A DNA stretch of 64,000 nucleotides from the IMG/VR virus record IMGVR_UViG_3300028920_002946, positions 62,001 to 126,000 of that record. One strand, written 5' to 3'. The position numbers and the translations under genes were made by a program. Below, one piece after another: positions 5,860 through 31,976 of the stretch. Numbering within the stretch: the first letter of the stretch is position 1; every line of letters begins with the position of its first letter. Under the pieces are notes generated by a model. It worked only from the letters and a program-made list of their open reading frames with translations, did not search any database and was not told where the DNA came from. This DNA is from a virus.

Positions 5860-8115
5860 TTACTTCCGCCAAACGTAGAGGGGTTCCCCCTCCTTCTGCC
5901 TGCTGCGGGTGTTCCAATACCGGGTGGGCAGCCCCTCGAGGCGCGTGCGCGGAAGGGCGCAATGCAAATTGCGCGGGAGATTGAGGACCAGGTAGCCGCC
6001 CGGCTCCAAAGCCGATTCGGCATACTGGAAAATCAGCCCCATAAGATCCCTCCACTCCCCGCGGCCCATTTTCCTGCCGTACACCTCCAAATCGATGTAC
6101 GGGGGCGAGGTAAACACAAGATGGCACCTTTCGGGGGCGCCCTCCAATGAGAACCCGCCGTGAACGAGGTCGCACCGGGCCGCGGACACGAAATCCCTCA
6201 TGGCGCACAAACCCTTGTGGGTCTTGCCCCAAGGCTCGAACCCCACGTAGGACCTCCCGCTGGAAACGGCCCCCAGCATCCGGCCGCCCCATCCCGCGCA
6301 CGGGTCAACGACAACGCCCCCAGGGGGGCTGTAGCGCTCGACGACAGCCTTGGCCACCACGCTCGGAAACGCGGTGACGCCCCCGCTGTACTGTATCAAC
6401 GCGTTCCGGACGAATTTGGGAAGTATGCTTTTCTTGGACTTCAGGCAATACTGCAGGGTCGAATGAAGCGTGGAGTGCCCGGAGAAGGTGTCAGCCGGCG
6501 AAACCCCGCGATATGTGGCCTCGCTCATATGGGGCATGTAGTGCTTGAACAACTCATCACCCACGTTTGCATACCTCAAGACCGTATCGGACTTCCACAG
6601 GTATCTGCTCTGAAACGACTCTATCAACTTCCAGGATCGGCGAAGATACTCGTCCCCGTACCGGGGAGCCGGGAACCCCTTGGAATGATAGTAGGCAACC
6701 GCGTCGTGCAGCACCTCCGGATTCAAGTCAACCACGTACTTGTTTACAAAAGACAAATCCAGGTCGGTGTTGACGGCGGGCTTGAACAACTCCGGAAAAT
6801 AGGTTTCCCAATAGGAGCCCAAATAACCCTCATCGGACGACTTGTACCAAAAGCCGGGCAGTATATACTCACCGGGCACAGGCTCGATGCGCAACGTCCT
6901 TCTGGCGGCGTTCTTGAAGAAGAATCGATTCTCCAACGACCCTATAATGGACTTCCCGGCAGTGACTATGTCCCCTTGTGAACCGTCATCCATGAAATAG
7001 CACGCCCGGCCGAGGTCATTCAATTCGGCGGCGATCATCTCGAAATTCCTGGACCCATCCGGGTTCAGATACCTGCAGTATTCATCGAACCCCGGGCACG
7101 AGAGGCCTATCTGCTCCTCGGACACTATCACACAGTCCTCATAGGCCTGGCCCTTCCTCGGCACCGTAACCACATTGGACAGATGATCCCGCAGTATCTG
7201 CGCCTTCACGTAGAGGTAGCTCAGCTGCGCCAAGGAATGGTTGACCACAAAGCGGCCGTTGAAGTCCAAATGGCCGTCGCCCATCAGCCATCCAAGCAGC
7301 ATCTGATGCACATCCTCGTCGCGGGGGGGCGTCTCCATCGGGGGGCGCCCCACGAGAAGATCCCGTATGGCCTCCAAGTCGCCGCTCCAGGCGACCCTTC
7401 TTTCAGGCAGCGCTATGCCCGCCTGCGCGATCCTGCGATGAAGGACGGTTTCCGAAACCCCCCTCTCCCGGCTGAGGGCCGCAACGCTGCCGGCCTTTTT
7501 CAAGGACTCCTCAAACTCCTCGTCGCTTCCGGAGTTGGCGATGCCCCTGGCCCTGTGTATCCGGTGCCACCTCGGGCCATCGAGGCCGATGCTCTTGATG
7601 TGGATCAAGAGGTCATCATCGTTTACACGGACGCCGTGGATGCGCTCTATCTCACCCGCCATGTCGACAACGCGCATGTCGCGGGACAGCATATCCTCCA
7701 CATCGCTCTTCTTGACATGCCCCCTGAGCCATGTCCGGTTATCCAATGACTTGATGCCGAACCTCCGGAGCCACCACCCAGCCGTATGTCTCGTAAGGGC
7801 CAGCCCGAATTCCTCATTCAAGGCCAAGGCGACCTGTTCGTAGCCGAACTTCTTGGTCTCGCACAGATACCGGGCCCGGTCTTTCATCGCCGCCGTCCAC
7901 GACGACTCCCCGAGAACCTGGGAAGCGGCGGCGCGCTTGGGCTGGATAAGGCCCTTTTTCTTGAGGAGGGAGATCTGCCTCTTGACCCAACGAGGCGTCT
8001 GACCGAGACGCTCAGCCATCTCGGCATTCTTCATCGATGAGTAGTTTTCGACGATAAACTTGAGGTTCTCGGGGGTCTTGCGGTCGGCGGTGACGCCCCT
8101 CTTTGGCGTGCTCAT
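5860..8115 (-). CDS. HTH array - LAGLIDADG homing endonuclease - DNA methyltransferase fusion
   Basis: The 751-residue protein joins three functions. Residues 1-250 look like several winged or helix-turn-helix segments (for example MAERLGQTPRWVKRQISLL, 33-51). Residues 272-440 form a LAGLIDADG-type endonuclease with motifs LLGWLMGDG (273-281) and ACYFMDDGS (371-379). Residues 465-751 are a complete amino-methyltransferase with SAM motif VVDPCAGWGGR (602-612) and catalytic TSPPY (669-673). The ATG at 8115 was chosen because a host-type promoter ends six bases upstream; there is no Shine-Dalgarno. Distinct neighbouring operons suggest a mobile insertion. It shares architecture with the gene at 28352-30946. 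N4-cytosine or N6-adenine specificity cannot be told from the sequence. Confidence 0.85.
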   Translation of the reverse strand: MSTPKRGVTADRKTPENLKFIVENYSSMKNAEMAERLGQTPRWVKRQISLLKKKGLIQPKRAAASQVLGESSWTAAMKDRARYLCETKKFGYEQVALALNEEFGLALTRHTAGWWLRRFGIKSLDNRTWLRGHVKKSDVEDMLSRDMRVVDMAGEIERIHGVRVNDDDLLIHIKSIGLDGPRWHRIHRARGIANSGSDEEFEESLKKAGSVAALSRERGVSETVLHRRIAQAGIALPERRVAWSGDLEAIRDLLVGRPPMETPPRDEDVHQMLLGWLMGDGHLDFNGRFVVNHSLAQLSYLYVKAQILRDHLSNVVTVPRKGQAYEDCVIVSEEQIGLSCPGFDEYCRYLNPDGSRNFEMIAAELNDLGRACYFMDDGSQGDIVTAGKSIIGSLENRFFFKNAARRTLRIEPVPGEYILPGFWYKSSDEGYLGSYWETYFPELFKPAVNTDLDLSFVNKYVVDLNPEVLHDAVAYYHSKGFPAPRYGDEYLRRSWKLIESFQSRYLWKSDTVLRYANVGDELFKHYMPHMSEATYRGVSPADTFSGHSTLHSTLQYCLKSKKSILPKFVRNALIQYSGGVTAFPSVVAKAVVERYSPPGGVVVDPCAGWGGRMLGAVSSGRSYVGFEPWGKTHKGLCAMRDFVSAARCDLVHGGFSLEGAPERCHLVFTSPPYIDLEVYGRKMGRGEWRDLMGLIFQYAESALEPGGYLVLNLPRNLHCALPRTRLEGLPTRYWNTRSRQKEGEPLYVWRK

Positions 8116-8121
8116 GGCATA

Positions 8122-8150
8122 AATATACAGCGACCCAAGAGCCGTGTCAA
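8122..8150 (-). promoter_or_regulatory. Host-type sigma70-like promoter of first fusion gene
   Basis: On the minus strand TTGACA (8150-8145) is followed after exactly 17 bases by TATATT (8127-8122). The ATG at 8115 begins six bases past the -10 box, so the transcript would be leaderless or nearly so. Confidence 0.8.
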
Positions 8151-8171
8151 CTAGGGCCTTACATTTTTTCG

Positions 8172-9053
8172 TTACATGGAGCCAATCCAATTACGCCTCG
8201 ATTGAACTCCGGGTTTGGAATAAGGCCCCAAAGCCGAACTGATTCCTATACCGTAACGCGGCTGCTTCAGACCGCGGACGATTTTTATCGATTCCTTGGC
8301 CTGCTCCGCGGCCTCCTTGAACTCGGTCAGGAAGTTGTTCTTCATCGACTCGTACTTCGACGACTTCTCGAGATCCAGGGAGACCCCCGATATGCTGTAG
8401 CCGTATTCGTCGGCGATCCAGTTGAGGGCCACGGCCGCGCAGGCCATGGCGGCCGCGCGCATCAGCACGGTAGTTCTCCACCTGATGGGCATGTCCGTGA
8501 GGCTGACCCCCGTGACGGGCGGGTAGGAGTTGAACAGGTCCACCGCCATGAGGAGGTACTCGTAGAGCTCCTCGTCCTCCCATATGTACCCGAACACCTG
8601 CGTCTGCGCCTGCAGGAACTTCTCGTGGGACGGCGGCCGGAAGCGGTAGTTGCGGTCGGGGTTGTTGTCCCGCAGGATGATGCGCAGCCTGCGGACCATG
8701 AGGTCGGCCGTCTCGTCGCCGGTGACGCTGACCGTGACGCAGTCCTTCACCACGTTGAAGGCCTGGACGGCCTCCACGAGCGGAGAGGTCGGGGTCTCGC
8801 GGAAGTTCCAGCGCACGAGCCAGTCGCCGATGTTCGAGTCCAGGGGCAGCGTGGCATCCACGTAGTACTGCCCGGTGCCGGAGGTCGCCGGCACCCTGTC
8901 CGGCGCCCCTATGAGCACCTCCACGCCCGTGGTGTCGTCGAAGAGGGAGTACCGGATGTAGGCCGGGTCCGTCGGGACCCCGGAGCCGTTCCTTACGGTG
9001 ATTTTCAGGTCGTCCTGCGCGAGGGTCTGCCCCGGCTTGAAGGCAACTGACAT
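8172..9053 (-). CDS. Virion structural protein with Ig-like N-terminal domain
   Basis: The 293-residue protein has a beta-sandwich-like N-terminal domain (about 10-100) that parallels the upstream neighbour at 9110-9568. Both contain a YIRYSL/WIRYDV strand, a W-x-x-RW-x-F/Y strand and a closing hydrophobic strand. The C-terminal part is helical (about 120-260). A TAATnnTCT-type motif lies 41 bases upstream of the ATG. It is probably a tail, neck or fibre-attachment component; no specific family was recognised. Confidence 0.65.
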   Translation of the reverse strand: MSVAFKPGQTLAQDDLKITVRNGSGVPTDPAYIRYSLFDDTTGVEVLIGAPDRVPATSGTGQYYVDATLPLDSNIGDWLVRWNFRETPTSPLVEAVQAFNVVKDCVTVSVTGDETADLMVRRLRIILRDNNPDRNYRFRPPSHEKFLQAQTQVFGYIWEDEELYEYLLMAVDLFNSYPPVTGVSLTDMPIRWRTTVLMRAAAMACAAVALNWIADEYGYSISGVSLDLEKSSKYESMKNNFLTEFKEAAEQAKESIKIVRGLKQPRYGIGISSALGPYSKPGVQSRRNWIGSM

Positions 9054-9826: not shown

Positions 9827-10228
9827 CTATTCCCCGGGGCCGCCCGGTTTTGGTACCTCGTACGGGTTGGCCAGCATAGAGAAGCTGTCCAGCGTGAACT
9901 CCATGCCGGGTGCGTCGAAGTGGCGCAGGTCGATTGTCTTGACCGGCTCGCCCTCGCCGAAGAAGACAAGACGGTGCTTGACAGGCTGCCCGTCCAGCCG
10001 GAGCAGCTGCACGTCGTTGACCTTCACCTTCAACTCGCGCGCGATGCGGCTGTAGTCCGGGTCGGAGATGAATTTCTTCTTCTGACCCGGCGTGAGGTAC
10101 ACTTTTCTCTCCGTACCGGAGACGGCCGCCTCGATGGCGTTGCTGACGGCGTCGATGTCCGCGGCCTCCTTGAGGAGGCCCTTGGACTCCAGATCCGACG
10201 CGATGCGGTCGAGTCTCTCGGTGATCAT
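9827..10228 (-). CDS. LESKG-module protein, head/tail region
   Basis: The 133-residue protein begins with the helical module found in three neighbours: DRIASDLESKGLLKEA (about 7-22) then DAVSNAIEA. The remaining 100 residues are a compact basic and beta-containing domain of no recognised family. The start codon overlaps the upstream gene's stop (ATGA), implying coupled translation. The shared N-terminus suggests a targeting or cleavable propeptide for virion assembly; this is inference. Confidence 0.65.
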   Translation of the reverse strand: MITERLDRIASDLESKGLLKEAADIDAVSNAIEAAVSGTERKVYLTPGQKKKFISDPDYSRIARELKVKVNDVQLLRLDGQPVKHRLVFFGEGEPVKTIDLRHFDAPGMEFTLDSFSMLANPYEVPKPGGPGE

Positions 10229-10686
10229 TCCCCGTCCTCCGGCTCGTCTATGTCGAGCACGAGTTCTATTTCGAAGTCGATGGTGCCTTTCCCCTCGTCG
10301 ACATCCGGCATGTAGTCCACCTGGTCCTCCCAGATGTAGTCGTCGAAGTCCTCGTCAAGGTCGCTGGTGTCGAGGTCGGAGTACGTCTTCTTGAGGTAGG
10401 GGATCAGCTTCGGGTTGATCTCCTTCTTGAGATCCCCCTCGTGCTCCTCCACCCAGTCCATGATGGCGGCGTTGAGGACGCGGTAGCTCTCGGGGATCGC
10501 CCCGTCGAACGACAGCCTCATCTTCGCCCACACGTCGACCTGGGCGAACATGTCCCGCTCGCCGTCCGCGACGGCCTCGACGGTCGTCTCGTCGACGCTC
10601 TCGAAGCCGAGGAACTCGACGTCCTTGAGCCGGAGGTTGCGCGAGGCCGCCACCTTCATGGCCTGTACAGCTGAAAGCCTGAGCAT
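10225..10686 (-). CDS. Acidic structural-operon protein, unknown
   Basis: The 153-residue product is acidic, with a DLDTSDLDEDFDD stretch near 108-120 and a Glu/Asp-rich C-terminus. The N-terminal 40 residues look like a helix followed by strands. No family was recognised. Its stop overlaps the next gene's start by four bases, so the two are probably made in fixed ratio. A role in tail or head assembly is inferred from position only. Confidence 0.6.
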   Translation of the reverse strand: MLRLSAVQAMKVAASRNLRLKDVEFLGFESVDETTVEAVADGERDMFAQVDVWAKMRLSFDGAIPESYRVLNAAIMDWVEEHEGDLKKEINPKLIPYLKKTYSDLDTSDLDEDFDDYIWEDQVDYMPDVDEGKGTIDFEIELVLDIDEPEDGE

Positions 10687-10694
10687 CGTCGAAC

Positions 10695-10922
10695 CTACCT
10701 GTAGGTTTTACCGAACTCGCCGTCGTCGGTGTTGGTGAAGTTGGCCCCGTCGATCCCCGTCACGCCCTGGTCCCAGTCGGTCGGCTGCAGGGGGGCCTCG
10801 TACACCTCACCCATGATGCCGGTGTACCCCACGGCGATGTCGATGTCGGTCGATATCTTGTACGGCCCCATGGCGGGGGAAACCGACCCTATGGTGCCCT
10901 GGTTCGTCTTTTCCGTTGCCAC
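10695..10922 (-). CDS. 75-residue protein, unknown
   Basis: The short product starts at GTG (MATEKTNQGTIGS) and is rich in Gly, Thr and Asp, with no membrane segment or motif. It lies 8 bases upstream of the 153-residue gene in the same operon. Repeated TG and DG turns resemble other structural proteins here, so a minor virion protein is possible. Confidence 0.5.
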   Translation of the reverse strand: MATEKTNQGTIGSVSPAMGPYKISTDIDIAVGYTGIMGEVYEAPLQPTDWDQGVTGIDGANFTNTDDGEFGKTYR

Positions 10923-10940
10923 TTTGCGGCCCCCGTCCGG

Positions 10941-11225
10941 TTATCCCCTGCGCACGTCGCTTCCCATGATGCTCGCGCAGAGGCTCTTGAGAGACTTGAT
11001 GTTGTCCGCGTGGGAGAGGGCGTCGATGGGCGCCTGCCTCATGAAGTACGCGTCCTTGAGCTTCTGGAGGATTTCGTTGTTCTCGAAATGGAAGAACACC
11101 TTCCTGGTATCCCTCGTCGTCCTCTTGATCTTGTTGCCCGCCGTGGTGAGGAAGGCGGCCAGGTACAGGTCGCAGGTCTTGTAGCCGTCCTCCGTGGCTA
11201 TCAGGTCGCCGTGGATGTTTCCCAT
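10941..11225 (-). CDS. Small protein resembling phage DUF5659 proteins
   Basis: The 94-residue protein carries a DLYLAAFLTTAGNKIKR segment followed by a VFFHFEN strand, a pattern like the small DUF5659 phage family, whose role is unknown. It is helical in its second half. It is the last gene but one before the 147-residue gene in transcription order, separated from it by a hairpin. The family resemblance is from memory and is tentative. Confidence 0.5.
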   Translation of the reverse strand: MGNIHGDLIATEDGYKTCDLYLAAFLTTAGNKIKRTTRDTRKVFFHFENNEILQKLKDAYFMRQAPIDALSHADNIKSLKSLCASIMGSDVRRG

Positions 11226-11280
11226 GCTGTTCCCCTATCGCTATCTTCGATTTGGCCCCGGAACGGCCCATTTAAGCGAA

Positions 11281-11311
11281 AGGTTGCCGAGGCTCCGAAC
11301 CCCGACAACCT
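11281..11311 (-). terminator. Hairpin downstream of the 147-residue gene
   Basis: On the minus strand a 12-bp stem (AGGTTGTCGGGG paired with CCTCGGCAACCT, two G-U pairs) has a 7-base loop and is followed by TTTCGCTT. It lies in the 116-base gap between the stop at 11342 and the start at 11225. Nothing else was seen in this gap. Confidence 0.55.
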
Positions 11312-11341
11312 CGCGATGTCACTCCTGATGTCGGACGACCA

Positions 11342-11785
11342 CTACAGGTCGCTGTTGCCGTAGTAGTAGCCGGTCTCGCCCGAGGCGGGCGCGCCCGTGA
11401 CGCCGGACTGGTCGTTGGCCAGATTCGCCATCACCGCATCGGTGAAGAGGCCGGAGCCGGTGTCGCCGATGTCCTGCCGCGGCCACTCGTCGGCCAAGGT
11501 GAACGTGCCCTCGGTGAGCACCAGCGGCGCGCCGTTGTGCCCGGTGAACACTGCCGAACTCGCGGCCGTCGAAAAGTACTTGAGGACCCCCTGCAGCATG
11601 CTGAACTGCACCTCGTCCGTGATCTCGAGCACGATCGTCTGTCCCCAGACGATGTATTGGTCCTGCCCGATGTTGTATCCGCCCTCCTGGCCGCCGCCGA
11701 GGCCGAGCCTCTTCGTGCAGTCCCTCAGGTAGATCTTGCCGACGTTCGTGCCGAAGTATTCGACCTTGAGCTGATTGTCTGCCAT
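11342..11785 (-). CDS. Virion protein of unknown function (147 aa)
   Basis: The protein is beta-rich and Gly/Thr-rich (VEYFGTNVGKIYLRD, TIVLEITDEVQFSML), reminiscent of tail-tube or decoration-type subunits, but no family was firmly recognised. It has its own upstream TAATnnTCT-type motif and a hairpin terminator after it, so it may be a separately controlled, abundantly made structural protein. Confidence 0.55.
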   Translation of the reverse strand: MADNQLKVEYFGTNVGKIYLRDCTKRLGLGGGQEGGYNIGQDQYIVWGQTIVLEITDEVQFSMLQGVLKYFSTAASSAVFTGHNGAPLVLTEGTFTLADEWPRQDIGDTGSGLFTDAVMANLANDQSGVTGAPASGETGYYYGNSDL

Positions 11786-11825
11786 CTCATCCTCCTTGGA
11801 TGTGCCTCTCTCTGTTGCTGTTGTT

Positions 11826-11841
11826 GGCCCCGTGCGGGGCC
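11826..11841 (-). other. Short GC hairpin in 5' leader
   Basis: A perfect 6-bp GGCCCC/GGGGCC stem with a 4-base loop lies between the candidate promoter at 11857-11875 and the ATG at 11785. There is no U-tract, so it is more likely a leader structure than a terminator. Confidence 0.35.
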
Positions 11842-11856
11842 TGACGTTATTTCAAT

Positions 11857-11875
11857 CCCTATTACTAGATAATTA
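11857..11875 (-). promoter_or_regulatory. Candidate late promoter motif, site 4
   Basis: The minus strand reads TAATTATCTAGTAAT, a full match to TAATnnTCTnnTnAT, 72 bases upstream of the ATG at 11785. Confidence 0.6.
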
Positions 11876-11877
11876 CA

Positions 11878-13173
11878 CTACATAATCATAGCGTGGCTGT
11901 TCCAGAAGGCCTCCGACTGCGACAGCTCCTCGGGGGTGTGCTGGTGGCCTGACCCGCCGCCCTTGATGCCCTTGATGTTTCTTCTGATGGTCTCCGGCGC
12001 CATGGGCGTGCCCGCCGGGGTCGGTTCCGCGTTGAAGGTGATGATGTCCCAGTCCGCCCCTGTCGGCCTGCCGTCCGGCTCCTTCTCGAGCTGTGCCTTG
12101 GAGTACAGCACGACATCGACGTGGTCGGAGGGGATGGGTTGGACGTCCTTGGCCTCGAAATACCTCTGCTCGTACTCCTCCTCGAAGTCGCGCCTCTTCG
12201 TCGTCCTGGTCTTGAGGAGGGGTTCGTTCTGGGGCGTTATCTTGGCGATGGGGCACTTGATGTTCGGATCCTTCACCCTTGCTATCCTCACGAAGTCCGC
12301 ATAGCCCAATTTGGCCTGCCCCGTGCGGATCTGCCTCTCGGCCTCCTTGCGGAGGCTCTCCATCTGCGCGCGCGAGAGTTTCGTGCCGACGAAGTCCGGC
12401 TTCGCCTGCCTGAGCGCGAACTTGTTGATGCCCACCGCCGCCTCCGCATCCTGCTGCGCGGCTGCTGCCTCTATGGTGTTCGAGACGATGTCCAGCTCCT
12501 CGGCCTCCCGGACCAGGCCCTTCGACTCCAACCTTCCAGCTATTTTGTCGATAGCCTCGGCGCATGCATATTTCAAGCCGCTGTATTTGTCCGCCAGGGA
12601 TTCCGAGCCGCCATACTTCTCCATCTGCTCGGTCTCCTCCTGTTTGTCCCATGCGGCGCGCTGCTGCTGCGCCCGCTGCACCATGGCCTTGACCTCGTTG
12701 GGGCCGAGCCTCTTGGCCGTCTGGAACATCTGCTCCACCTTCGCGGCGGGAAGACGACTTAAGATGTTCTGCGTCCAGCGGCCCATCCCGCCGGGCTGCT
12801 CGAAACCGGGCACCACCAGCCAATCGCGGAGTTGCTTACCCTTAAGGCCGACTGCGACCTCGTAGGCATCGTAATCCCCGGGATTGGGGAGATCCTTCTG
12901 TGGGATGCAGTTATGCTTCTGCGAAGCCTGTATCGAGAATGAAAGGCCGTTGGGAAGGTCTATCGGCTCGTTCATCTGAGGGTCGTCGGTTCTTCTTTTG
13001 AGTCTTCTGATGAACTCGTAGTTCGCCTTGCGCGCCTGCGGGGCGCGGGGGTCGATAGCATACGCTTCAACCGTATTGGACACGGTGTCCAGCTCCTCGG
13101 CTTCCTTAAGGAAACCCTTCGACTCGAGGGAGTTGGCGATCCCGTCAATCTTCGAAGCTATCCTGTCGTACAT
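11878..13173 (-). CDS. Protein with two LESKG modules, probable fusion
   Basis: The 431-residue protein holds two copies of the helical module: residues 3-37 (IANSLESKGFLKEAEELDTV) and 205-236 (IAGRLESKGLVREAEELDIV). Each copy is followed by its own domain, so the gene looks like a fusion of two module-bearing proteins. The first unit has a globular region about 75-160; the second is mixed alpha/beta. It follows the 239-residue module protein by 3 bases. Position and repetition suggest virion assembly; the biochemical role is unknown. Confidence 0.65.
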   Translation of the reverse strand: MYDRIASKIDGIANSLESKGFLKEAEELDTVSNTVEAYAIDPRAPQARKANYEFIRRLKRRTDDPQMNEPIDLPNGLSFSIQASQKHNCIPQKDLPNPGDYDAYEVAVGLKGKQLRDWLVVPGFEQPGGMGRWTQNILSRLPAAKVEQMFQTAKRLGPNEVKAMVQRAQQQRAAWDKQEETEQMEKYGGSESLADKYSGLKYACAEAIDKIAGRLESKGLVREAEELDIVSNTIEAAAAQQDAEAAVGINKFALRQAKPDFVGTKLSRAQMESLRKEAERQIRTGQAKLGYADFVRIARVKDPNIKCPIAKITPQNEPLLKTRTTKRRDFEEEYEQRYFEAKDVQPIPSDHVDVVLYSKAQLEKEPDGRPTGADWDIITFNAEPTPAGTPMAPETIRRNIKGIKGGGSGHQHTPEELSQSEAFWNSHAMIM

Positions 13174-13176
13174 CGG

Positions 13177-13896
13177 TCACCCCAAGTATGAGTTGGTTTC
13201 GTACTTGCCGGACGGCATCTTGAACCACGACACCACGAGCTTCGCGTTCTCGATCGGCGTGCGCATGCCGTCCCTCGGCACTTCCCCCAGAGACGCCACG
13301 TCCATGATCGCGCGCCCCTCCCTGCCGGTAAGGAACCCCTCCCACTTCGTGCCGTCCTCGGCTATCGCGACGAGGCCGTTGTCCTCGAGTGCCTTGAATA
13401 TCTCGTCCAACGGTATCTGCGGCCGGTATTCCTTCGACACCTGGCTCAGGATACTGTTGACGCGCTTGCGGCGCGGATCCGATGCCTTCAACATAGGCTT
13501 CGTCTCGCCGGCGTCGATGGTGTTCGCGACGATATCCACCTGCTCGGCCTCGGCGAGGAGCCCCTTGGACTCGAGGTCGTTCGCGATTCTGTCCAAGGCG
13601 CGAGCCACGGACGCTTGAACCGCTTGCGCGGGCCCGCCGATCATGTTCAGCATCTCCGGCGTGATCGGCTTATCGTAAAAGGTGTCAGCTTCATCCTTCG
13701 CGATCTCCCTCGCTTGGGCCACAGACGTTACCACGGAACTGCGTGACACACCGTATCTCGCGTATGTGGTGCCCTCGGCCTCGCGTATTTTGTCCAAGAC
13801 TTGGGCGACGCTGTCGGCAAGTTGTTTGCTGGCGAAGACACCAATAGTCCTAGAACCCTCGTAGTCTCGGGAGAGATAGACCTCATAGATATCCAT
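13177..13896 (-). CDS. Protein with internal LESKG module
   Basis: The 239-residue product starts MDIYEVYLSRDYEG and has an N-terminal alpha/beta domain (about 1-95). The shared module follows at 98-129 (DRIANDLESKGLLAEAEQVD), then a basic region resembling a winged helix (about 145-190). The module being internal here, rather than N-terminal, argues that it is a mobile domain and not just a leader. It lies 14 bases after the Fn3-like gene. The function is unknown. Confidence 0.6.
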   Translation of the reverse strand: MDIYEVYLSRDYEGSRTIGVFASKQLADSVAQVLDKIREAEGTTYARYGVSRSSVVTSVAQAREIAKDEADTFYDKPITPEMLNMIGGPAQAVQASVARALDRIANDLESKGLLAEAEQVDIVANTIDAGETKPMLKASDPRRKRVNSILSQVSKEYRPQIPLDEIFKALEDNGLVAIAEDGTKWEGFLTGREGRAIMDVASLGEVPRDGMRTPIENAKLVVSWFKMPSGKYETNSYLG

Positions 13897-15577: not shown

Positions 15578-16133
15578 TCAGAGACAGGTCCACATCACAG
15601 TCAATCTCGTCACCCCACACATCCCATCCGACAGACTTCTGCCTAGCGAACAGCTCTATTCGCGGAACATCGCCGCAAACATCAACAATCTTTCCCCGTA
15701 TGTCATCAGGCTTTTTAGAATGACCGCCTCTTTGATGCATAAACACATTAGGAATTCTACTCACGGTATCAACCGTAAACCTTCCTCGAGTACCAAACAG
15801 AATATGCTCAGTCGCACCCCTGAAATAAAATCCCATGCCATTGTTAATGACATTTCCTTGCTTATCAACCTTCACCCAGGTAAGAGTTGTTTTGTAACTG
15901 AATCCCCAAGCACTCATAACCTCAAAACCATACACTATCTTAGGATTCGTAACCCACAGAAAAAGGGCGCTGTTGTCGTCCGCTATCTCCGAAACAGGTA
16001 GCCGACAGATCTTCTCAACCGTCATCGTACCGTAATGGGCCTGCGGATTTCCCCCACGAGCGGCTTTTCTCCGCTTCTTCATCTTACCGTAATCCCAAGG
16101 GGGGTCGGCGTAAATAACGCTATACCTCTTCAC
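15573..16133 (-). CDS. MT-A70-family adenine methyltransferase
   Basis: The 186-residue protein is an MT-A70-type N6-adenine methyltransferase. It opens KRYSVIYADPPWDYG, with the catalytic DPPW at 10-13, and has the family's conserved later segments (ALFLWVTNP, GFEVMSAWGFSYKTTLTWVK, ATEHILFGTRG). The GTG start at 16133 overlaps the stop of the glycosyltransferase gene (GTGA), so translation is coupled. Its base composition is clearly more AT-rich than its neighbours, and exact AT-rich repeats flank its 3' end, suggesting recent acquisition. It probably modifies phage or host DNA; self-protection is inference. Confidence 0.88.
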   Translation of the reverse strand: MKRYSVIYADPPWDYGKMKKRRKAARGGNPQAHYGTMTVEKICRLPVSEIADDNSALFLWVTNPKIVYGFEVMSAWGFSYKTTLTWVKVDKQGNVINNGMGFYFRGATEHILFGTRGRFTVDTVSRIPNVFMHQRGGHSKKPDDIRGKIVDVCGDVPRIELFARQKSVGWDVWGDEIDCDVDLSLI

Positions 16134-19100
16134 CCCTTGAACTTCTCGATCCACCCGTCCGCGATCTTCTCCCACGAGTACTCCTTCATCTTCGCCTGCG
16201 CCTTGTCAGCCCACTCTCTTCGATAGTTGGCATCCGTGAGTAGCTTGATCGACTCCTCCACAAATCTATCCGTGTACTCCTTCGGATAGTCGGCGTCCAT
16301 GGGCAGGCCGTCGCCCGGAATGAGTATCCCGGACGGCCCAACGGTCGTCTTGAGGCCCGCGCGGTCGGTGGAGAGTATCGCATTGTGGGACAGGCCGTTC
16401 TCGACGGCGCCTATGCAAAATGTCTCGTCAAACCAACAGGGATAAAGCCAGACGTTGGCCCTCTTCTGATGCTCCGCCAATGTGGCCTTGTCGATGCGAT
16501 CAAGATACTCGACGCCCGGCTGCTCCATCGCCGCCTTGATCTTCTGGATGAAAGCCATGCCCCTCTGGTCGTTCCTGCGCTTCACGGCCGACTCCCAGTT
16601 GTAGAAGCCGTAGGCCACCTTCAGCTTGAAGTCCGGGACGGCCTTCCGTATCTCCGGCATCATCTGCAGCAGCTGATACAGGCCCCTGTCCGGACTCGAC
16701 GAATACACGGAGCAGTTCTCCTTCGCGGAGTCGTCGACGTCATTGTACAGATCCTGCACGACGCCGTTGGCGGTGAGGAACATCTTCTCGGGCGGCAGCT
16801 GCTTGTGGTGGCCGCAGAGGAACTCCTTGTGCCAATCGGAGAGGTAGGCGTACCCCTGCACCTTCCACGCCATCACATCGTAGTTGGGGTCGGGGTTCAG
16901 CCATATGTCGTGCACCATGACGTAGTTGCGCCCGCTGTGCAAACTCTGCCTCATGGGCTCGCAGCTACGGGACGATATGAAGTAGTCGATGTAAAGGTAC
17001 TGTATGTCCTCCATCATCTTCGTGTGATCCACGTACCGCACGGCGCCGTAATCGACGCCCCCCTCGACGACCGGGTCGAGGGCCACATCGTCCTTCGAGT
17101 CGGCGAGGAGGTCGTTGTAGACGGTGGCCTCGTAGCCCTTCCTCACGAACGCGCGCGCGAGGTACGCGGCCCACGTCTCCGACCCCGCCATCCCCTCGTC
17201 CACCCTCCGGCGGTTCCACGGCTCCCACGCGGGTCCCGTCCAGATGGCGATGCGCTTCCTCTCCCACTTCCGCTTGAGCATGACATGGTTCTCGCGGTCC
17301 TCGGCGTCGTAGCTCTCGCGGTCCTCGTCCTGGTAGGCGCCGCGGCTCACGCCCCCGAAGTGGAACACGAAGGAGCCGATCGACTGCCCGCACGCGAACC
17401 CGGCCTTCCCAAGCCGCATGCACAGGTCGAGATCCTCGCAGCCGTTCTTGAACCGGGTGTCGAACAGCCCAACCTCGTTGATGGCGCTGCGCGCGAATAT
17501 GGTGGCGTAGGCCGCGACCCACTCCTGCGGCTGGAAGATGTCCCTGTGCCTCCTGTTGGAGGCCTCCATGAACTCGTACAGCTCGTCGATGTGCGGGGTG
17601 ATCTCCTCCAGCTTCATGCCGGGGTGCAGCTCGACCCCCGCCCTCTCCAGGCGCATCGGGTAGGTCGGCTTCCCCGGGGCGCCGTGAAGCCATGACCTGT
17701 CGCAGTTCGACAGGACGCCGCAGGACGCCAGCCGGTGCACGGTTTCCATGTGCCTGACCATGTTGCCGAGCCAGCCCTTGGACACGACGACGTCGGAGTT
17801 CATGATGACGAAGAACTTGCTGCGCGAACTGCGTACCCCCGCGTTGCAGGCCTCCGAGAAGGTCTTTCGGGCCCCCTCCTCGCCGAGGACCGTTATCCCC
17901 TTCAGCGTCCTCAGATACTCCCACACCTCCGGCCCGCTCCCCGCGTCGCTGACGACGATGTGGAACGGGTGCACCGTGTTGAGGCGTATGGAACTGAGGC
18001 ACAGCTTGAGGTACTCGAGGTTGTTGTAGTTCGGGATCACGAGGTCGACGACATCCCGCGCCTTCTCCACGCTCGCGGGTGCCTCCGCGTGCTCCAGCCT
18101 GATGGTGCCATTCACGAGGCTGTCGAAGAGGTTGATGTAGTTCTGGACGTTGTTCTCGAGCCTGTAGGGGGCGACCGACCTCTTCGCGGCCTTGCCCACC
18201 CGGCGTCGCTCGCCCACGTCCCCCAGCTTGCGGAGGGCCTCGCCCCACTCCTCCTTCGTCTCGGCGATGAAGCCGTTCTCGCCGTGGGCGATGATCTCCT
18301 TGTAGGCCTGCAGCGGGCTCGCGATGACGGGCATCCCGAAGGCCATGGCGGTCGTCGCCTTCACGCTGCTCTTGCCGGGCTGCACGTCGACCCTCTGCGG
18401 GCAGAGGGCCACGTCGCAGGCGGCGAGGTCGTCCGGCCACGTGTCCGGGTCCCACTTGATGTCGGCGTTGTCCCACTCGGAGATCACCACCAGGTCGTAT
18501 CCGGCCGACTCGATGGTGTCCCGGAGGTGGTCGGTGACGAGGAAGGAGTTGCCGCCCATCCCCATGAACACGGCCTTCGGCCTCTCCCCCTTGATCTCCT
18601 TGTATTGGTGGGGCTTCCGCGGTTCGCGCTCCTCGACGCTGTCCTTGAGCACGACCGTGTGCAGGAACCCCCGCTCCCGCGTCATCTCCGCCAGCTTCGT
18701 CGAGCAGCAGAGGATGGCGTCGGCCTCGTGCATGCACTCGTCCTCGAGGGGGAACCCGAAGATGCCCTCGCAGTGGTCGAAGCATATCCTGCGGTTCTTG
18801 GCCTTCATGGCCCGCATCAAGTCCAGTTCGGCGGGGCCAAAGCTCGTGAACACGACGACGTTCGCCGTGCCGACGGCCTCCTCGACATCCTCCGCCGACA
18901 TGTTCTGGTACCCCACCACCCTGCGGCTCTCCACCCTCTTGCCCCGAAGCTTCTCGTCGATGATGAGTCGACGCAGTCTCGTGGAGGGGTTGGTGGCGTC
19001 GTCGTTGGGCAGCAGCCACACGACGGACGTCTTGCGGTGCTTGCGCAGTCGAAGGTCGGCGTGCAGTCCGTTGTTGGCGAGCACCTCCACCATGAGATCG

Positions 19101-20257
19101 CGGTTGCGCAGGAGGTTGCCGAGGGCGTCGAGATCCCCCTGCTCGATCGTCGACCCGCCGGTGCCCTTGCGGGTCTCCTCCTCGATGGCCGCCTTCAGCG
19201 CGCGGGCCTCCCTGCTCTCCGGCTTCTTCGATATCGCGTGGTCGACATGCTTGAGCGCCTCGCCCAAGCTCCTCCTCTTGAGCATGATCGTCGCCAGCTT
19301 CATCGAGGGGATGTACCCGTAATAGTCGACCAGCTGGGACATGCCCCCGGAGAGGGTCTTGGTGAGGGCCTCCCTGTAGTACGTGACGGCCTCGTCCTCG
19401 CGCCCCTCCTCCTCGGCTATGAGGCCCAGGACGACATGGTTCTCGGCGTATATGCCGTTGAACCGTATCCCGAGCATCGCGTAGTTGCGGGCCGCCTCCT
19501 TGTTGCCCTGCTTCATGTAGTAGTTGGCGAGCCGGATGCAGCCGACGGTGAGGTTGTCCACGAAGCCCTCGCCCCTCGCCACGAACTTCTCGAGGACGGG
19601 GACGGCCTCCTCCCACTTGCCGATGTCCGCCAGCTCCTTGCCGTAGTAGAAGGCGATCCTGGCGGACGCGGCGCCCGTGTCGTACTCCTGCTTGAGCAAG
19701 GTCAGGTTGCGCTTGGGGTCGTACGGCCGGTTGCGGTAGTGGTCGATCTTGATGTCGAGGCGGCTGATCCGCATCGACCCGTCCATGTTGAGGTACTCGT
19801 GGATGGGATCGTGCCAGCGTATCTTGGGCGTGTTGCGGACGAGCCGCTCCCTCGGGAGAATGAGGACGGGTCGGTCCTTGTCGTCGTGCGAGTAGACGTA
19901 GTCCATGAGGACCACGTCGATCTCCGGCAGCTTCTCGACGAGGGCGTTGATCTTGTCGTGTTCGGACTCCTTGACCACGTCGTCGGAGTCCAGCCAGAGG
20001 ATGTGCGCCGCCTCGCTCTGCTCGAACGAGTAGTTGCGGGCCTTCGAGAAGTCGTCGCACCACTCGAAGAAGGCGACCTTCGTGGCGTACTTCTCGGCGA
20101 CCTTCACGACCTCCTCGTCGCGCATCCTGGTGGCGTGCGTGATGACCACCTCGTCGAAGTTGATTCCCTGCACGCTCTTGAGGCACCGCTCGAGGATGTC
20201 GGCCTCGCCGGATCCCACTATCAGGTTCAGTCCCAGCTTCTTCGTGTGCTCCGCCAT
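16130..20257 (-). CDS. Giant multidomain glycosyltransferase
   Basis: The 1375-residue protein strings together four sugar-transfer units. Residues 8-170 are a GT-A (GT2-like) domain with WLDSDD (88-93). Residues 195-360 are TPR-like helical repeats. Residues 405-710 are a GT-B/GT4-like domain (CPQRVDVQPGKSS and FGMPVIASP near 620-648). Residues 738-985 are a second GT2-like domain (IPNYNNLEYL, MNSDVVV, GCEDLDLCMR). Residues 1005-1375 are a second GT4-like domain (WFDETFCIGAVE near the C-terminus). It could glycosylate virion proteins, host surface polymers or modified DNA bases; no acceptor can be read. The following MT-A70 gene is translationally coupled. Confidence 0.88.
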   Translation of the reverse strand: MAEHTKKLGLNLIVGSGEADILERCLKSVQGINFDEVVITHATRMRDEEVVKVAEKYATKVAFFEWCDDFSKARNYSFEQSEAAHILWLDSDDVVKESEHDKINALVEKLPEIDVVLMDYVYSHDDKDRPVLILPRERLVRNTPKIRWHDPIHEYLNMDGSMRISRLDIKIDHYRNRPYDPKRNLTLLKQEYDTGAASARIAFYYGKELADIGKWEEAVPVLEKFVARGEGFVDNLTVGCIRLANYYMKQGNKEAARNYAMLGIRFNGIYAENHVVLGLIAEEEGREDEAVTYYREALTKTLSGGMSQLVDYYGYIPSMKLATIMLKRRSLGEALKHVDHAISKKPESREARALKAAIEEETRKGTGGSTIEQGDLDALGNLLRNRDLMVEVLANNGLHADLRLRKHRKTSVVWLLPNDDATNPSTRLRRLIIDEKLRGKRVESRRVVGYQNMSAEDVEEAVGTANVVVFTSFGPAELDLMRAMKAKNRRICFDHCEGIFGFPLEDECMHEADAILCCSTKLAEMTRERGFLHTVVLKDSVEEREPRKPHQYKEIKGERPKAVFMGMGGNSFLVTDHLRDTIESAGYDLVVISEWDNADIKWDPDTWPDDLAACDVALCPQRVDVQPGKSSVKATTAMAFGMPVIASPLQAYKEIIAHGENGFIAETKEEWGEALRKLGDVGERRRVGKAAKRSVAPYRLENNVQNYINLFDSLVNGTIRLEHAEAPASVEKARDVVDLVIPNYNNLEYLKLCLSSIRLNTVHPFHIVVSDAGSGPEVWEYLRTLKGITVLGEEGARKTFSEACNAGVRSSRSKFFVIMNSDVVVSKGWLGNMVRHMETVHRLASCGVLSNCDRSWLHGAPGKPTYPMRLERAGVELHPGMKLEEITPHIDELYEFMEASNRRHRDIFQPQEWVAAYATIFARSAINEVGLFDTRFKNGCEDLDLCMRLGKAGFACGQSIGSFVFHFGGVSRGAYQDEDRESYDAEDRENHVMLKRKWERKRIAIWTGPAWEPWNRRRVDEGMAGSETWAAYLARAFVRKGYEATVYNDLLADSKDDVALDPVVEGGVDYGAVRYVDHTKMMEDIQYLYIDYFISSRSCEPMRQSLHSGRNYVMVHDIWLNPDPNYDVMAWKVQGYAYLSDWHKEFLCGHHKQLPPEKMFLTANGVVQDLYNDVDDSAKENCSVYSSSPDRGLYQLLQMMPEIRKAVPDFKLKVAYGFYNWESAVKRRNDQRGMAFIQKIKAAMEQPGVEYLDRIDKATLAEHQKRANVWLYPCWFDETFCIGAVENGLSHNAILSTDRAGLKTTVGPSGILIPGDGLPMDADYPKEYTDRFVEESIKLLTDANYRREWADKAQAKMKEYSWEKIADGWIEKFKG

Positions 20258-25526: not shown

Positions 25527-25805
25527 CTACTGCGTCTTGTCCACGGGCACGTCGTCCGTCCTCGGCGCCGGCGCCCCCTTGCCGTTGCGCGTCTCGCCGA
25601 AGTGCTGGGCCGCCTTGGCGCCCAGAGTCAGGGCGACGAGCATCGCCTCCTCGGCGCCCATGCTCACAAACCCCCCGCCGTTCACCATCGCGACGACGTT
25701 GTGCGCCACAAAGACGCCCATGATGGACGTCACGACCATGGCCGTGGCGACCCTCATCATGCTGACCTTGCCGTTCGCATCGCCCTTCAACACGTGACCC
25801 ATCAT
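25527..25805 (-). CDS. Small membrane protein, holin-like
   Basis: The 92-residue protein has one clear transmembrane segment (about 17-42, MRVATAMVVTSIMGVFVAHN) and a second weaker hydrophobic stretch (about 50-66). A hydrophilic tail ends in charged residues. Small proteins of this layout in phages are often holins or lysis-associated membrane proteins. A peptidoglycan-degrading partner was not recognised nearby, so the lysis role is tentative. Its ATG overlaps the upstream stop. Confidence 0.5.
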   Translation of the reverse strand: MMGHVLKGDANGKVSMMRVATAMVVTSIMGVFVAHNVVAMVNGGGFVSMGAEEAMLVALTLGAKAAQHFGETRNGKGAPAPRTDDVPVDKTQ

Positions 25806-27247
25806 CTCTGGCCCCCCTTGATGACCTCCCCGACCTCCAGAAGCTTCTGCATCATCAGGCCGCTCGGTATCATGACCTCCCTCACGGCCTCCTCGAGGTC
25901 GGAGGGGTCCTGCATGTCAGCCTTCGCCTTCCTCAGCAGCGCCGCGGCGCCCTCGAACACCCTGATGTACTTGTCGTACATCTCGTCGAACAGGTTCTTG
26001 GTGTTCGTGACCTCGGCCTTGGAGTCCGCGATGTGCTCCGGCAGCGACTTGATGCGGACGCCGTCGCCCTGCCTGAAGATGCCGGCCGCCACCTTGCCCT
26101 CGAGGCGCGACGCCAGGGCCTCGTAGCCCCTCCCGCGTAGGTTGGCGGCGCACCTCCGCACGAGGGAGGAGGCCGAGGAGGCGACGATGCGCTTGTGGCC
26201 GCGCTCGTACTTGTCGATCAGCTCGTAGATGACATCCCTTTTCGCCGTGTCCCTCTCGGACATCGCCTGCGACTCCAGGAACCGCAGCGTCGGGTCAGCC
26301 CGCGCCGGGATCCCCTTCCGCAGGGCGCCGGCGGGGGACGGCTGCGAAAGCCAATGCTTCCCCTCCGCAGCCTGGCGGCCCGCCGGGGAAACCTCGCCGG
26401 CCTTGGCCGCGTCTATCAGCTCCCGGAACCACCGCTTGCGCTCGGGGTCGGTTTCCCTCTGCATCTCCCTCGTGAGGTAGTCCGACACGAGGACGCCGAC
26501 GACGCGCGGCGAATAGGTGGCAGGCGACTCCCGGCCCGTCCCCGGCTCGATTTCGGTGTACGGCTCGCCCCTCCGCAGCATGGGAGCGCCGTACGGCACC
26601 TCGCGGGGCTCCCTTCCCGGCGGCGCGCCCCGGCCCCTCGGCCTCCTCGCCGGCGGGGTCCACAGCGGGGGCAGCGAGGCGGCCACCTCCTTCACGAGGG
26701 AGGCGTATTTCTCAAGGCCCCTCTGTTCCAGATCGCCCATCAGATCCTCGAGCGAGGGCGCGGGCCCGGCCGCGCTGCGGTCCGCCCTCTCCTCCGTCCA
26801 ATTTCTCCTGTCCCCGAGGTAGTCTTCGATGTACCCCTTGGCGGCCTCGGAGAGCCACCCCTTGATTTCGGCGTCCGACTTGAACGCGCCCAGCTCGCGG
26901 AAGGTGACATTCCCCCCGCCGGCCTCGTCGACCGACAGGAGGGCCCTGTCAGGCGGGACCCCGGCCGCCTTGGCCTTTTCGGTCAGCGACGCGAGGCTCG
27001 GTGCGGGGATGTCCACCCTGTCCAGAACGTCGCCGGCGCCGGCGCCCCCGGCGCCCGCATAGAGCCTCATCCCCTTGTTTCCGAACCGACCGACGCCCGG
27101 GCCGATATTCCTGTCCCGCGCCGAGTCATAAAGGTTGGCCACGAGGGCGTTCTCCGGGAAATCCACCACATCGTAACGGCCCGTCGGCTTCGGCGTCGGC
27201 GGCTCCGGAACATCGTGGGGGGACCAGACGGCTGCGCGCTCGCTCAT
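25802..27247 (-). CDS. 481-residue structural protein with helical segments
   Basis: The protein has a Pro-rich N-terminus, a helical middle with DLEQRGLEKYASLVKEVA (about 168-186), and a later ANLRGRGYEALASRLEGK (about 373-391). Both segments loosely echo the LESKG module of the 10-13 kb proteins. The C-terminal 90 residues look coiled-coil. No enzyme motif was seen. It lies 13 bases after the metallopeptidase gene. A virion or injected-protein role is possible. Confidence 0.55.
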   Translation of the reverse strand: MSERAAVWSPHDVPEPPTPKPTGRYDVVDFPENALVANLYDSARDRNIGPGVGRFGNKGMRLYAGAGGAGAGDVLDRVDIPAPSLASLTEKAKAAGVPPDRALLSVDEAGGGNVTFRELGAFKSDAEIKGWLSEAAKGYIEDYLGDRRNWTEERADRSAAGPAPSLEDLMGDLEQRGLEKYASLVKEVAASLPPLWTPPARRPRGRGAPPGREPREVPYGAPMLRRGEPYTEIEPGTGRESPATYSPRVVGVLVSDYLTREMQRETDPERKRWFRELIDAAKAGEVSPAGRQAAEGKHWLSQPSPAGALRKGIPARADPTLRFLESQAMSERDTAKRDVIYELIDKYERGHKRIVASSASSLVRRCAANLRGRGYEALASRLEGKVAAGIFRQGDGVRIKSLPEHIADSKAEVTNTKNLFDEMYDKYIRVFEGAAALLRKAKADMQDPSDLEEAVREVMIPSGLMMQKLLEVGEVIKGGQR

Positions 27248-27260
27248 GAGTCTTCACCTT

Positions 27261-27980
27261 TCATGCGGGAAAGTATCCCCCGATCCTGTCGTCGAAATAC
27301 TTGACCTTCCGCGGCGGCAGAAACGACTTCAGCCCGCCCACGTAGTAGGAGAAGGAGTCCGCCCAGTCGTCCCACGGGTTGCGGCGGGCGTAGAACCTCG
27401 TGTACCCGGCGTCCGGGTCGTACCACCACTCGCCCGTCATCTCGGGGGCGCCTCGCTCCCTTATGCGGAGCCTCCTCAGCCCCGGCGCGGGCTTCTCGGA
27501 CCATTTCGAAAGCCCCGTCCAATCCGGCCGCTTGCTCAGTTCCAGCCCGCCGGCCCCCCGCGCCTCGTCCCAGCCGTGCCCCAGCTCGTGGAACAGCGTC
27601 TGGTCGAACTTGTCGAGGCTCGCGCCCGCGTCGGGATCCACCTCGAAGAGGCCGTCGTCCAGCAGCCTGCTGTTCAACACCAGGGCGCCGTTGCTGTAGA
27701 CACCGTGGTTGGGGAAGTACTCGCGCGACTCGCCCATGTCCTCGAAGCCGATCGACGTGACGCCGCAGTCCCGCACGAGCGTTGGCGGCAGCCTCGATAT
27801 GCTCTCCCCCAAATGGCGCAGGCAATCAATGCCGGGGTGGCCGGTAACGGTGATGCCGTACCTGCCCTTGAGCATGGACAGTATCTCGCCGCGGTCGACG
27901 GAGTCGTCGAGGTCCGCCGCGACGCGCCTCAGCTTCCTGGCGATTTTGACGGTAAGCAAATGTCCCTCCACAGACACCAT
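27261..27980 (-). CDS. Zinc metallopeptidase (HExxH)
   Basis: The 239-residue protein carries a zincin motif, FHELGHGWDE (H131, E132, H135), followed at about 203-213 by WDDWADSFSYY, whose acidic residues could supply the third zinc ligand. The N-terminus (VKIARKLRRVAADLDD) is helical. The chosen ATG at 27980 lacks a good ribosome-binding site; a TTG at 27959 is preceded by GGAGGG and is an alternative. It might act on virion proteins, the host envelope or host proteins after infection. Confidence 0.75.
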   Translation of the reverse strand: MVSVEGHLLTVKIARKLRRVAADLDDSVDRGEILSMLKGRYGITVTGHPGIDCLRHLGESISRLPPTLVRDCGVTSIGFEDMGESREYFPNHGVYSNGALVLNSRLLDDGLFEVDPDAGASLDKFDQTLFHELGHGWDEARGAGGLELSKRPDWTGLSKWSEKPAPGLRRLRIRERGAPEMTGEWWYDPDAGYTRFYARRNPWDDWADSFSYYVGGLKSFLPPRKVKYFDDRIGGYFPA

Positions 27981-30946: not shown

Positions 30947-30953
30947 GATAGGT

Positions 30954-30982
30954 AATATAGCATTTGGAGATGCTACTGTCAA
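30954..30982 (-). promoter_or_regulatory. Host-type sigma70-like promoter of second fusion gene
   Basis: On the minus strand TTGACA (30982-30977), 17 bases, TATATT (30959-30954), then seven bases to the ATG at 30946. The spacing and leaderless layout mirror the first fusion gene's promoter. Confidence 0.8.
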
Positions 30983-31094: not shown

Positions 31095-31976
31095 CTAGCG
31101 AGCAATCTTCACGCGGCACAGCGCCAGCGGGTTGTAGCAACCAATCCCAAGGTGTTCGAAAATGCTGAACCCTATCCTTCTTGCCCGGGGATCGTCTGCG
31201 CTCAGAACTGTGAGTTCTGTACGGACGGGAATACGCCCGAAGAACTCCGGCTCCGCGCACACGTAGGCGTACCCACGCGCGACCTTACGAGAGACGATGA
31301 CCTGCGCGCCCCAGAGGGTGGCGAGCATGCCGCTCTTCAGCAGCGTGGCCTGGCTCTCGAGGTCGAGGACATCGCGGCCCCACTTCCTCAGGTCGGCGAA
31401 GTCCAGCGCGTTCATGAACACGCGGGCGACCCTGAGGTCGTGCGTCTCGATGCGCGCGTAGGCGTCGATGAGGTTGGAGGGGGTGAGCGGCGCCACGGCG
31501 TTGACCTGGGCGTTGGTGTAGCTGCTGTCCAGGTTGTCGAAACCGTTCGCAGCGACGGCGTCCATGACGTCGAAGATGCGTCCGTCCTCAGCGGCCTGGA
31601 TCTGCGCCTTGCCGAGGTCCTGGGCGCGCTCGATGATGTCGAAGCGGCGCTCCTTGACCTGGGTCAGCGGGATCTCAGGGTTCGAGGCGAGCTCGAAGAG
31701 CGGGAAGGTCACCCTGCGGCCCTTGACCACGGCCAGGATGTTCTCGCCCTCTTCGCCGACCACGAATGCGGTGACGTTGGGGTCCTTGTCGTAGATGGGC
31801 AGTGCGCCATCCGGGAGCTGCTCGACCAGGAATGCCTTCCTGGCGACCGACGTGTAGTCTCTCCGCAGACGGAGAGGCTGGATCATCGACGCAGCGATCT
31901 TCGCACGGCCGGAGGCCGTCTTCAGATACTCGTTGATGATTTGCTGCTTGACCTCGTTGCTGATAGTGTCAGGCAT
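31095..31976 (-). CDS. Major capsid protein, HK97-fold-like
   Basis: The 293-residue protein has the layout of an HK97-type capsid subunit. An N-terminal helical arm is followed by a region with LVEQLPDGALPIYDKD and VTFPLFELAS. A long helix comes next (about 105-140), then an A-domain-like part (YARIETHDLRVARVFMN). The C-terminal strands include an APVIVSRKV-like turn (WGAQVIVSRK). Strong AGGAGG upstream of the ATG, a structured leader and a powerful terminator downstream all fit very high expression. It follows the decoration-like and scaffold-like genes. Confidence 0.8.
   Translation of the reverse strand: MPDTISNEVKQQIINEYLKTASGRAKIAASMIQPLRLRRDYTSVARKAFLVEQLPDGALPIYDKDPNVTAFVVGEEGENILAVVKGRRVTFPLFELASNPEIPLTQVKERRFDIIERAQDLGKAQIQAAEDGRIFDVMDAVAANGFDNLDSSYTNAQVNAVAPLTPSNLIDAYARIETHDLRVARVFMNALDFADLRKWGRDVLDLESQATLLKSGMLATLWGAQVIVSRKVARGYAYVCAEPEFFGRIPVRTELTVLSADDPRARRIGFSIFEHLGIGCYNPLALCRVKIAR

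Follow-up and report, generated by a model that had tools for sequence, protein, structure and literature searches.

A shared module in three adjacent genes

The 64,000 nucleotides of viral DNA considered here, referred to as the window, are bases 62001-126000 of the 182,677-base IMG/VR record IMGVR_UViG_3300028920_002946 (labelled G000), and the large genes in the window are mostly on the minus strand. Three adjacent genes code for proteins of 133, 431 and 239 residues that have in common a segment of about 34 residues, called the module below, with the pattern hDxIAxxLESKGLxxEAxxhDxVSNTIEA. Four copies lie in these genes and two more elsewhere in the record (Table 1). The first-pass annotation had placed the segment in these three proteins, and our results confirm this. 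Five of the six copies form ten pairs in correct register, and these are identical at 12-20 of 34 residues; among 300,000 random pairs of 34-residue stretches from different window genes the highest number of identities was 11. The five pairs with copy p431i were out of register and were left out of both the protein and the DNA comparison. A model built from the six copies found five carrier proteins at E <= 7.6e-19 among the 2,919 reading frames of the record, with the next frame at 0.038 (E-values from our scripts were computed with set database sizes). The same five proteins came out on top of the 2,919 frames, at E 5e-6, 1.4e-3, 0.025, 0.04, and 0.97, when the model was built from IMG/VR modules only, with no window sequence in it; four pattern matches were removed before the IMG/VR-only models were built. 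Two weaker echoes that had been proposed are at chance level, the one at 31-753 with E 8.4-10 by the IMG/VR-only model and the one at 25802-27247 with E 18 by the six-copy model and no place among the matches listed for the IMG/VR-only model. The copies had also been described as similar in their DNA, and they are, at 55-63 of 102 nucleotides, as much as the protein identity and the codon usage lead one to expect (z -1.2 to +0.6); DNA-level similarity was for this reason rejected as a sign of recent duplication.

In the 431-residue protein a DUF3228 domain starts 12 residues past module copy 3, and this region has solved relatives (PDB 2pd0, E 9.2e-18; 4fbd, E 6e-12); DUF3228 was not named in the literature searched. 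The internal module of the 239-residue protein can be compared with that of a 164-residue relative (L173) in record G051, which is 28% identical over residues 92-238 of the window protein and consists of an N-terminal module and the same C-terminal domain, the window protein having about 95 extra residues in front. Judged from this alignment, the simplest reading is that a fusion turned an N-terminal module into an internal one. A 239-residue protein at 27261-27980, with an HExxH-like HELGH, has an N-terminus that by eye resembles the first helix of the module; it is not among the listed matches of the IMG/VR-only model. A further, divergent copy that the first reading had overlooked lies near the C-terminus of a 382-residue protein (P382). 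Only its first helix matches in the window phage (model positions 2-17); in two relatives, in G040 and G051, nearly the whole model matches at the corresponding place (E 1.3e-4 and 1.2e-3).

Table 1. Module copies, head genes and module carriers with a recognizable partner (window coordinates unless a record or locus is named)
Feature	Position	Strand	Remark
Module copy 1	10127-10228	-	residues 1-34 of 133-residue protein
133-residue carrier	9827-10228	-	residues ~40-110 modelled as separate strands and helices, lower confidence
Module copy 2	13063-13164	-	residues 4-37 of 431-residue protein
Module copy 3	12466-12567	-	residues 203-236 of 431-residue protein
DUF3228 domain (PF11539)	11884-12429	-	residues 249-430 of 431-residue protein; Pfam E 1.2e-27
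Module copy 4	13510-13611	-	residues 96-129 of 239-residue protein
Two copies outside the window	G000 167748-167849 and 175061-175162	+	module-model match
Divergent module, longer turn	37891-38010	-	residues 280-319 of P382; E 0.045
P382, head-locus protein	37699-38847	-	between portal and prohead protease
Major head protein (MCP), phage-G type	31095-31976	-	phrog_2522, E 3.6e-54
Head maturation protease with probable intein	33991-36885	-	phrog_18299, E 1.2e-9
Portal protein	39589-41535	-	phrog_16240, E 1.1e-29
Large terminase	48207-50192	-	phrog_2, E 5.8e-20
Fe/Mn superoxide dismutase carrier	L091		module N-terminal
LysM and cell-wall hydrolase carrier	L030
GH108 lysozyme carrier	L074
PG_binding and GDSL esterase carrier	L098
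DUF5591 carrier	L098
AAA_33 kinase carrier	L129		window subtype
DnaJ carrier	L042
PilZ carrier	L067
Ferritin-like carrier	L034		E 6.6e-4, under Pfam's cut-off
CCA-adding enzyme carrier	L135		module C-terminal
HExxH-type carriers	L151, L156		by eye

Distribution of the module and its place in the carriers

IMG/VR was scanned with the degenerate DNA pattern hA..h(D/E)..G...EA..hD..h and at least 117 stretches matched. Since the pattern required D14, G17, E21, A22, and D26, the conservation of these residues was not used as evidence; beyond the pattern the matched stretches also conserve L at position 6, N/D after the first A, L/F after G, K before EA, and I/L and K near the module end. Among 84,980 prokaryotic genomes scanned with a slightly stricter pattern at least 116 stretches matched, and of those listed the module is in 5/116 as against 103/117 of the listed IMG/VR stretches, the model having been trained on the IMG/VR hits; a model from the window copies only gives 5/116 as against 31/117. 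Two modules are found in 44 of the 117 IMG/VR stretches listed and in none of the 116 prokaryotic ones. The two convincing prokaryotic hits are on short contigs of metagenome bins assigned to Rickettsiaceae (L233, JAIOYD010000055.1) and Altiarchaeales (L274, WJJK01000076.1), which are probably misbinned phage DNA; the first of these has by eye three further module-like N-termini.

The module is a short, helix-rich segment of low information, so that one may ask whether these are unrelated TPR/PPR-like hairpins that are alike by chance or convergence and have no shared role. The two weak profile hits obtained in the PDB, where there was no significant sequence match, include a PPR protein (E 1.2), and there are weak TPR-like fold matches. 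We regard this explanation as very improbable given the prokaryotic counts above and the scores on the 23 columns that the pattern leaves free. On these columns all six modules of the window genome (10.2 to -9.3) lie above 15 chance bacterial matches (best -17.3), and 3/6 lie above the 99.9th percentile of random sequence; the 16th bacterial match, L233, scores 38.5 and was treated as a true module.

For a closer view, 46 IMG/VR records of 7-379 kb were picked from the listed hits, and at least one match in each is therefore expected. The profile gave 226 matches in them, 1 to 22 per record, with some copies common to records G014 and G026; the records are mostly fragments and the genes were called simply as the longest frames. 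The window subtype is rarer, a strict pattern matching three IMG/VR records and a looser one five, G040 and G051 among them. Four IMG/VR loci from a homologue search with the six modules were dropped, because by eye they represent one connector-type protein, podovirus-like, in which a helix resembles the module by chance. No Pfam, PHROG or PDB profile or chain covers the module, neither 50,697 phage records nor 72,556 plasmid records gave a tblastn match to consensus modules, and no report of the module was found in the literature searched, most subscription journals lying outside that search. As far as sequence can tell, the module is a large phage-borne family that is not local to the window.

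The position of the module in its carriers was counted from the first Met of the frame, and a module was called N-terminal when it lay at most 12 residues from this Met (or from the frame start if no Met came before) and C-terminal when it lay at most 12 residues from the end. The count covered 176 carrier frames, without the window genome, that differ in their modules and hold 190 of them. It gave 118 N-terminal, 28 C-terminal and 44 internal modules, whereas uniform placement would make about 44 of the 190 terminal. A first carrier set, which leaves out six carriers judged to be chance (L087, L138, L050:11354, L094:1335, L042:2-577, and L128:2416), gave 101 N-terminal and 26 C-terminal modules of 165, with 40 expected. 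A single module is present in 213 of the 226 carriers, a count that holds duplicates.

What follows or precedes the module is very diverse. With the modules masked, 164 distinct carriers having at least 60 other residues fell into 121 clusters, of which 107 have a single member; a laxer cut-off gave 112 clusters, and an earlier unfiltered count, duplicates included where stretches overlap, gave 136 clusters for the 226 carriers. No Pfam or PHROG family matches more than two of the 149 carriers scanned (of 154 non-redundant ones). The partners that could be recognized are listed in Table 1; for the HExxH-type carriers Pfam gave no match for L151 or L156 and the PDB none for L151. It is thus well supported by the sequences that the module is a portable, mostly terminal tag on unrelated proteins. 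Its shuffling can be seen in two cases, namely, a carrier family described below whose domain is labelled either before or after, and the 239-residue protein, whose internal module is N-terminal in the relative.

Carriers also tend to adjoin each other, with 41 adjacent pairs (part of G014 counted twice) as against 20.3 expected and a maximum of 32 in 2,000 permutations. Moreover, modules on non-homologous cargo are more alike within a genome (49% identity) than between genomes (37%), the within-genome value reaching at most 42% in 1,000 label shuffles. In 15 of the 18 sets compared, all from records with at least three modules, identity within the genome exceeds identity to others, and the window phage is extreme, with 51% within and 29% to others. 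Such likeness may come from copying within a lineage, from a partner that differs between lineages, or from both together.

Predicted hairpin and proximity to head genes

In an AlphaFold2 model of the 133-residue protein the module consists of a helix at residues 2-15, a turn, and a helix at 19-37, with a predicted local distance difference test score (pLDDT) of 96-98 over residues 1-30, and the remainder folds separately at lower confidence. The module is therefore predicted to be an autonomous helix-turn-helix hairpin of about 33 residues. The tandem module pair of L078 was modelled as four helices (mean pLDDT 82.9, predicted template modelling score 0.62), and Foldseek found no match at E <= 0.001 for this model or that of the 133-residue protein. 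An amphipathic hairpin and a four-helix model of the pair would suit a plain oligomerisation domain, in which hairpins pair with themselves and the carriers become dimers or tetramers with no common address. We consider this quite unlikely, because a self-pairing tag on some 20 proteins per phage would mix the carriers, and the likeness of modules within a genome, even on unrelated cargo, suggests that they have a partner or an origin in common.

The first-pass annotation had also proposed a propeptide that a prohead protease removes in head maturation. The window phage does encode a head maturation protease, the module is mostly N-terminal, and head proteins of SPN3US are reported to have N-terminal propeptides of 20-254 residues that are removed after A-X-E (PMC10052503). 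However, in the 30 residues after the module A.E occurs at 6.5 per 1000 as against 6.3 in the comparison, L.E at 9.7 as against 9.2, and [AS].E at 15.2 as against 13.5, and there is no excess of I.E or A.E[AS] either; these are T4-like and phiKZ-like motifs, and the protease of the window phage may have a motif of its own. Conserved sequence stops with the hairpin itself and there is no protease motif behind it, which gives no support to a propeptide that is cut off; with 28 C-terminal and 44 internal modules among 190 we think this proposal highly improbable.

The carrier family tagged most often has what we call the RY domain (STRYSPDRxGVQARR...DPYTNKIYDYNEGF), and with 31 of the 226 carriers its cluster weighs heavily in some counts. 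Of 33 hits to this domain the module comes after the domain in 22 and before it in 7, and 4 have none at E < 0.01; without near-duplicates (29 distinct hits) the numbers are 18, 7, and 4. An example is the gene at 10066-11172 of L155. Wherever the upstream gene is in the stretch (30/30) it belongs to one family of about 520 residues, and 24/33 hits are directly upstream of a gene for 230-256 residues. We had guessed that these neighbours were annotated packaging genes, and this failed, none of the 12 scanned (10/10 of the ~520-residue family and 2/2 of the ~235-residue genes) having a PHROG match. The RY gene and its two neighbours form a conserved, unnamed block of large-phage genes upstream of the portal. 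In the eight records in which both could be located (G013, G018, G028, G029, G032, G034, G037, and G043) the RY module is 7.5-11.7 kb upstream of the portal gene on the same strand, and G039 is probably a ninth; for G013 the large terminase and portal of the block were confirmed by PHROG.

The proximity to the portal was compared with rotation of the records, using printed matches only and trying four distances. Within 15 kb of the portal there are 28 of 65 modules as against 13.8 under rotation in 22 records of at least 40 kb (p 0.003), and 15 of these 22 records have such a module as against 8.3 (p 0.001); in 15 records of at least 100 kb the count is 18 of 51 as against 7.4 (p 0.009). A large-terminase match in 7 of 114 neighbour genes was not used, because a local profile of the window terminase found none there and no background could be set.

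The major head protein of the window belongs to the type of Bacillus phage G. Because it is 72% identical to that of LR745208, a 485-kb uncultured phage, 48% to that of Tunturi_5, and 39% to that of phage G, the record is probably, by sequence, a fragment of a huge phage. The phage-G-type head protein is in 21 and the matching portal type in 26 of the 46 picked records. The gene order portal-P121-P98-P382-P263-protease-P403-P178-MCP is conserved in G040, and G051 keeps it except that P263 has no match and two other frames separate P178 from MCP; in both records P382 is split in two frames. It is possible that P382, which lies in this locus and has the divergent module, is a core- or scaffold-type partner of the tagged proteins. 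The two acidic proteins that flank the prohead protease have a second segment in common, SKKGPG(I/V)PDGTGP.GGTDEC (residues 280-299 in the product of 32668-33879 and 225-244 in that of 37699-38847), which is encoded by a 109-nucleotide direct repeat (32974-33082 and 38107-38215, 81% identical). The protease itself has about 410 additional residues between residues ~106 and ~520 that are absent in the LR745208 homologue, and since this insert begins CFTAGTRVLM it is probably an intein. Long TTG-started frames at 5860-8190 and 28352-30982, which by eye are mobile-endonuclease-like, both match the stretch adjoining the LR745208 head-protein gene, and the C-terminal end of the first is by eye DNA-methylase-like. 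Elsewhere in the window, at 16130-20257, a 1375-residue protein has four separate glycosyltransferase matches.

A docking tag, its possible destination and known systems

Since a terminal hairpin is found on unrelated proteins and a frequent carrier family has a constant distance upstream of the portal, we favour the class of docking tags. The first-pass suggestion of a head-targeting or oligomerisation tag stands to this extent; the destination, the virion head, is one that we infer. The explanation we prefer, to which we give somewhat less than an even chance, is that the segment is a portable docking tag and that its cargo is loaded into the prohead core or packaging region through a common phage partner. 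The two-helix hairpin would be fused to many unrelated proteins, mostly at the very start and in some cases at the C-terminal end, and the partner would collect them; this partner would most likely be located in the prohead core or packaging region, so that tagged proteins would enter the head with the DNA in the manner of the T4 internal proteins. Candidate hubs would bear the hairpin themselves, namely, the RY protein in many phages and P382 in the window phage, and by analogy the hub may be a hairpin-bearing protein of the core or packaging block. Such a system would involve a single partner, pairing of module with module, packaging into the virion, and ejection into the host.

Several results weigh against this explanation. 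The window genome has no counterpart of the RY family, and the divergent copy in its P382 is weak in the window phage itself. There is no enrichment of modules within 5 kb of the portal (6 as against 4.8 under rotation), and in the stretches around carriers 4/22 portal, 2/12 protease, and 1/5 head-protein genes are at most two genes from a carrier, as against 458/1,210 of all non-carrier genes. No copy was found in LR745208, Tunturi_5, phage G or MoMoMixon, four named phages whose head protein is of the same type, and thus the tag is not required for a phage-G-type head. Most carriers have no recognizable function, the listed enzymes being a minority, and several are enzymes that are typically cytoplasmic (CCA-adding enzyme, DnaJ, and kinase), so that the carriers found give no grounds for saying that the module always marks virion proteins. 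Finally, a single record supplies 190 of the 345 within-genome pairs, the modules in 3 of the 18 sets are no more alike within than to others, and recent copying alone could explain the similarity within genomes.

Some of these points would fit a tag that docks its carriers to a non-virion site, that is, a replication, assembly or membrane site in the infected cell. PilZ and DUF5591 carriers as well as the cytoplasmic enzymes, the adjoining of carriers, the many copies distant from portal or terminase (G032 and G036), and the lack of enrichment of head genes within two genes all speak for it. We nevertheless judge it unlikely, because the RY carrier has its constant place upstream of the portal, cell-wall hydrolases and an esterase suit particles or lysis better as cargo, and a protein of such a site that could act as the partner was not found.

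If the virion head is the destination, a wider proposal follows, which we consider possible but doubtful: a whole lineage of uncultivated huge phages would load its heads with a payload of antioxidant, cell-wall, lipid, RNA, and kinase enzymes by means of a two-ended hairpin label and a hairpin-bearing core protein, and dozens of proteins of unknown function would become recognizable from their sequence as particle cargo. For most huge-phage genes no function is known, and a tag that occurs as often as 22 times in a record would permit sorting many of them into one functional class by sequence only. If the destination is the particle, this also predicts which enzymes are carried into the cell before any gene expression and offers a short, structurally simple label with which foreign proteins could be loaded into very large capsids.

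TPR and PPR repeats are helix-turn-helix units of about 34 residues with conserved small residues that occur in solenoid arrays. The module resembles them as a predicted two-helix hairpin of this length but is mostly a single copy at protein ends, forms no solenoid, and gave weak structural matches. The propeptides of the SPN3US/phiKZ-like phages are likewise N-terminal segments on several head proteins of large phages (PMC10052503); they vary in length and are cut after A-X-E, whereas the module is one uniform hairpin without that motif. The internal proteins of T4 are diverse and are taken into the scaffolding core by a common capsid targeting sequence (CTS), as reported (PMC3012670). As in T4, one short conserved segment is the only thing that module carriers have in common. 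The module differs from the CTS in being a predicted hairpin that may be at either end or internal, and its cargo includes housekeeping-type enzymes. The cleavage step of T4 does not, judging by the motif counts, carry over to the module, after which there is no recognizable cleavage site and the known protease motifs tested are not in excess. Cargo-loading peptides of encapsulins and encapsulation peptides of bacterial microcompartments are terminal tags by which enzymes are loaded into a protein shell. The module is similarly a terminal tag on enzymes, among them superoxide dismutase, endolysins, an esterase, a kinase, and the CCA enzyme, and differs from these peptides in that it is phage-borne and, as predicted, hairpin-shaped.

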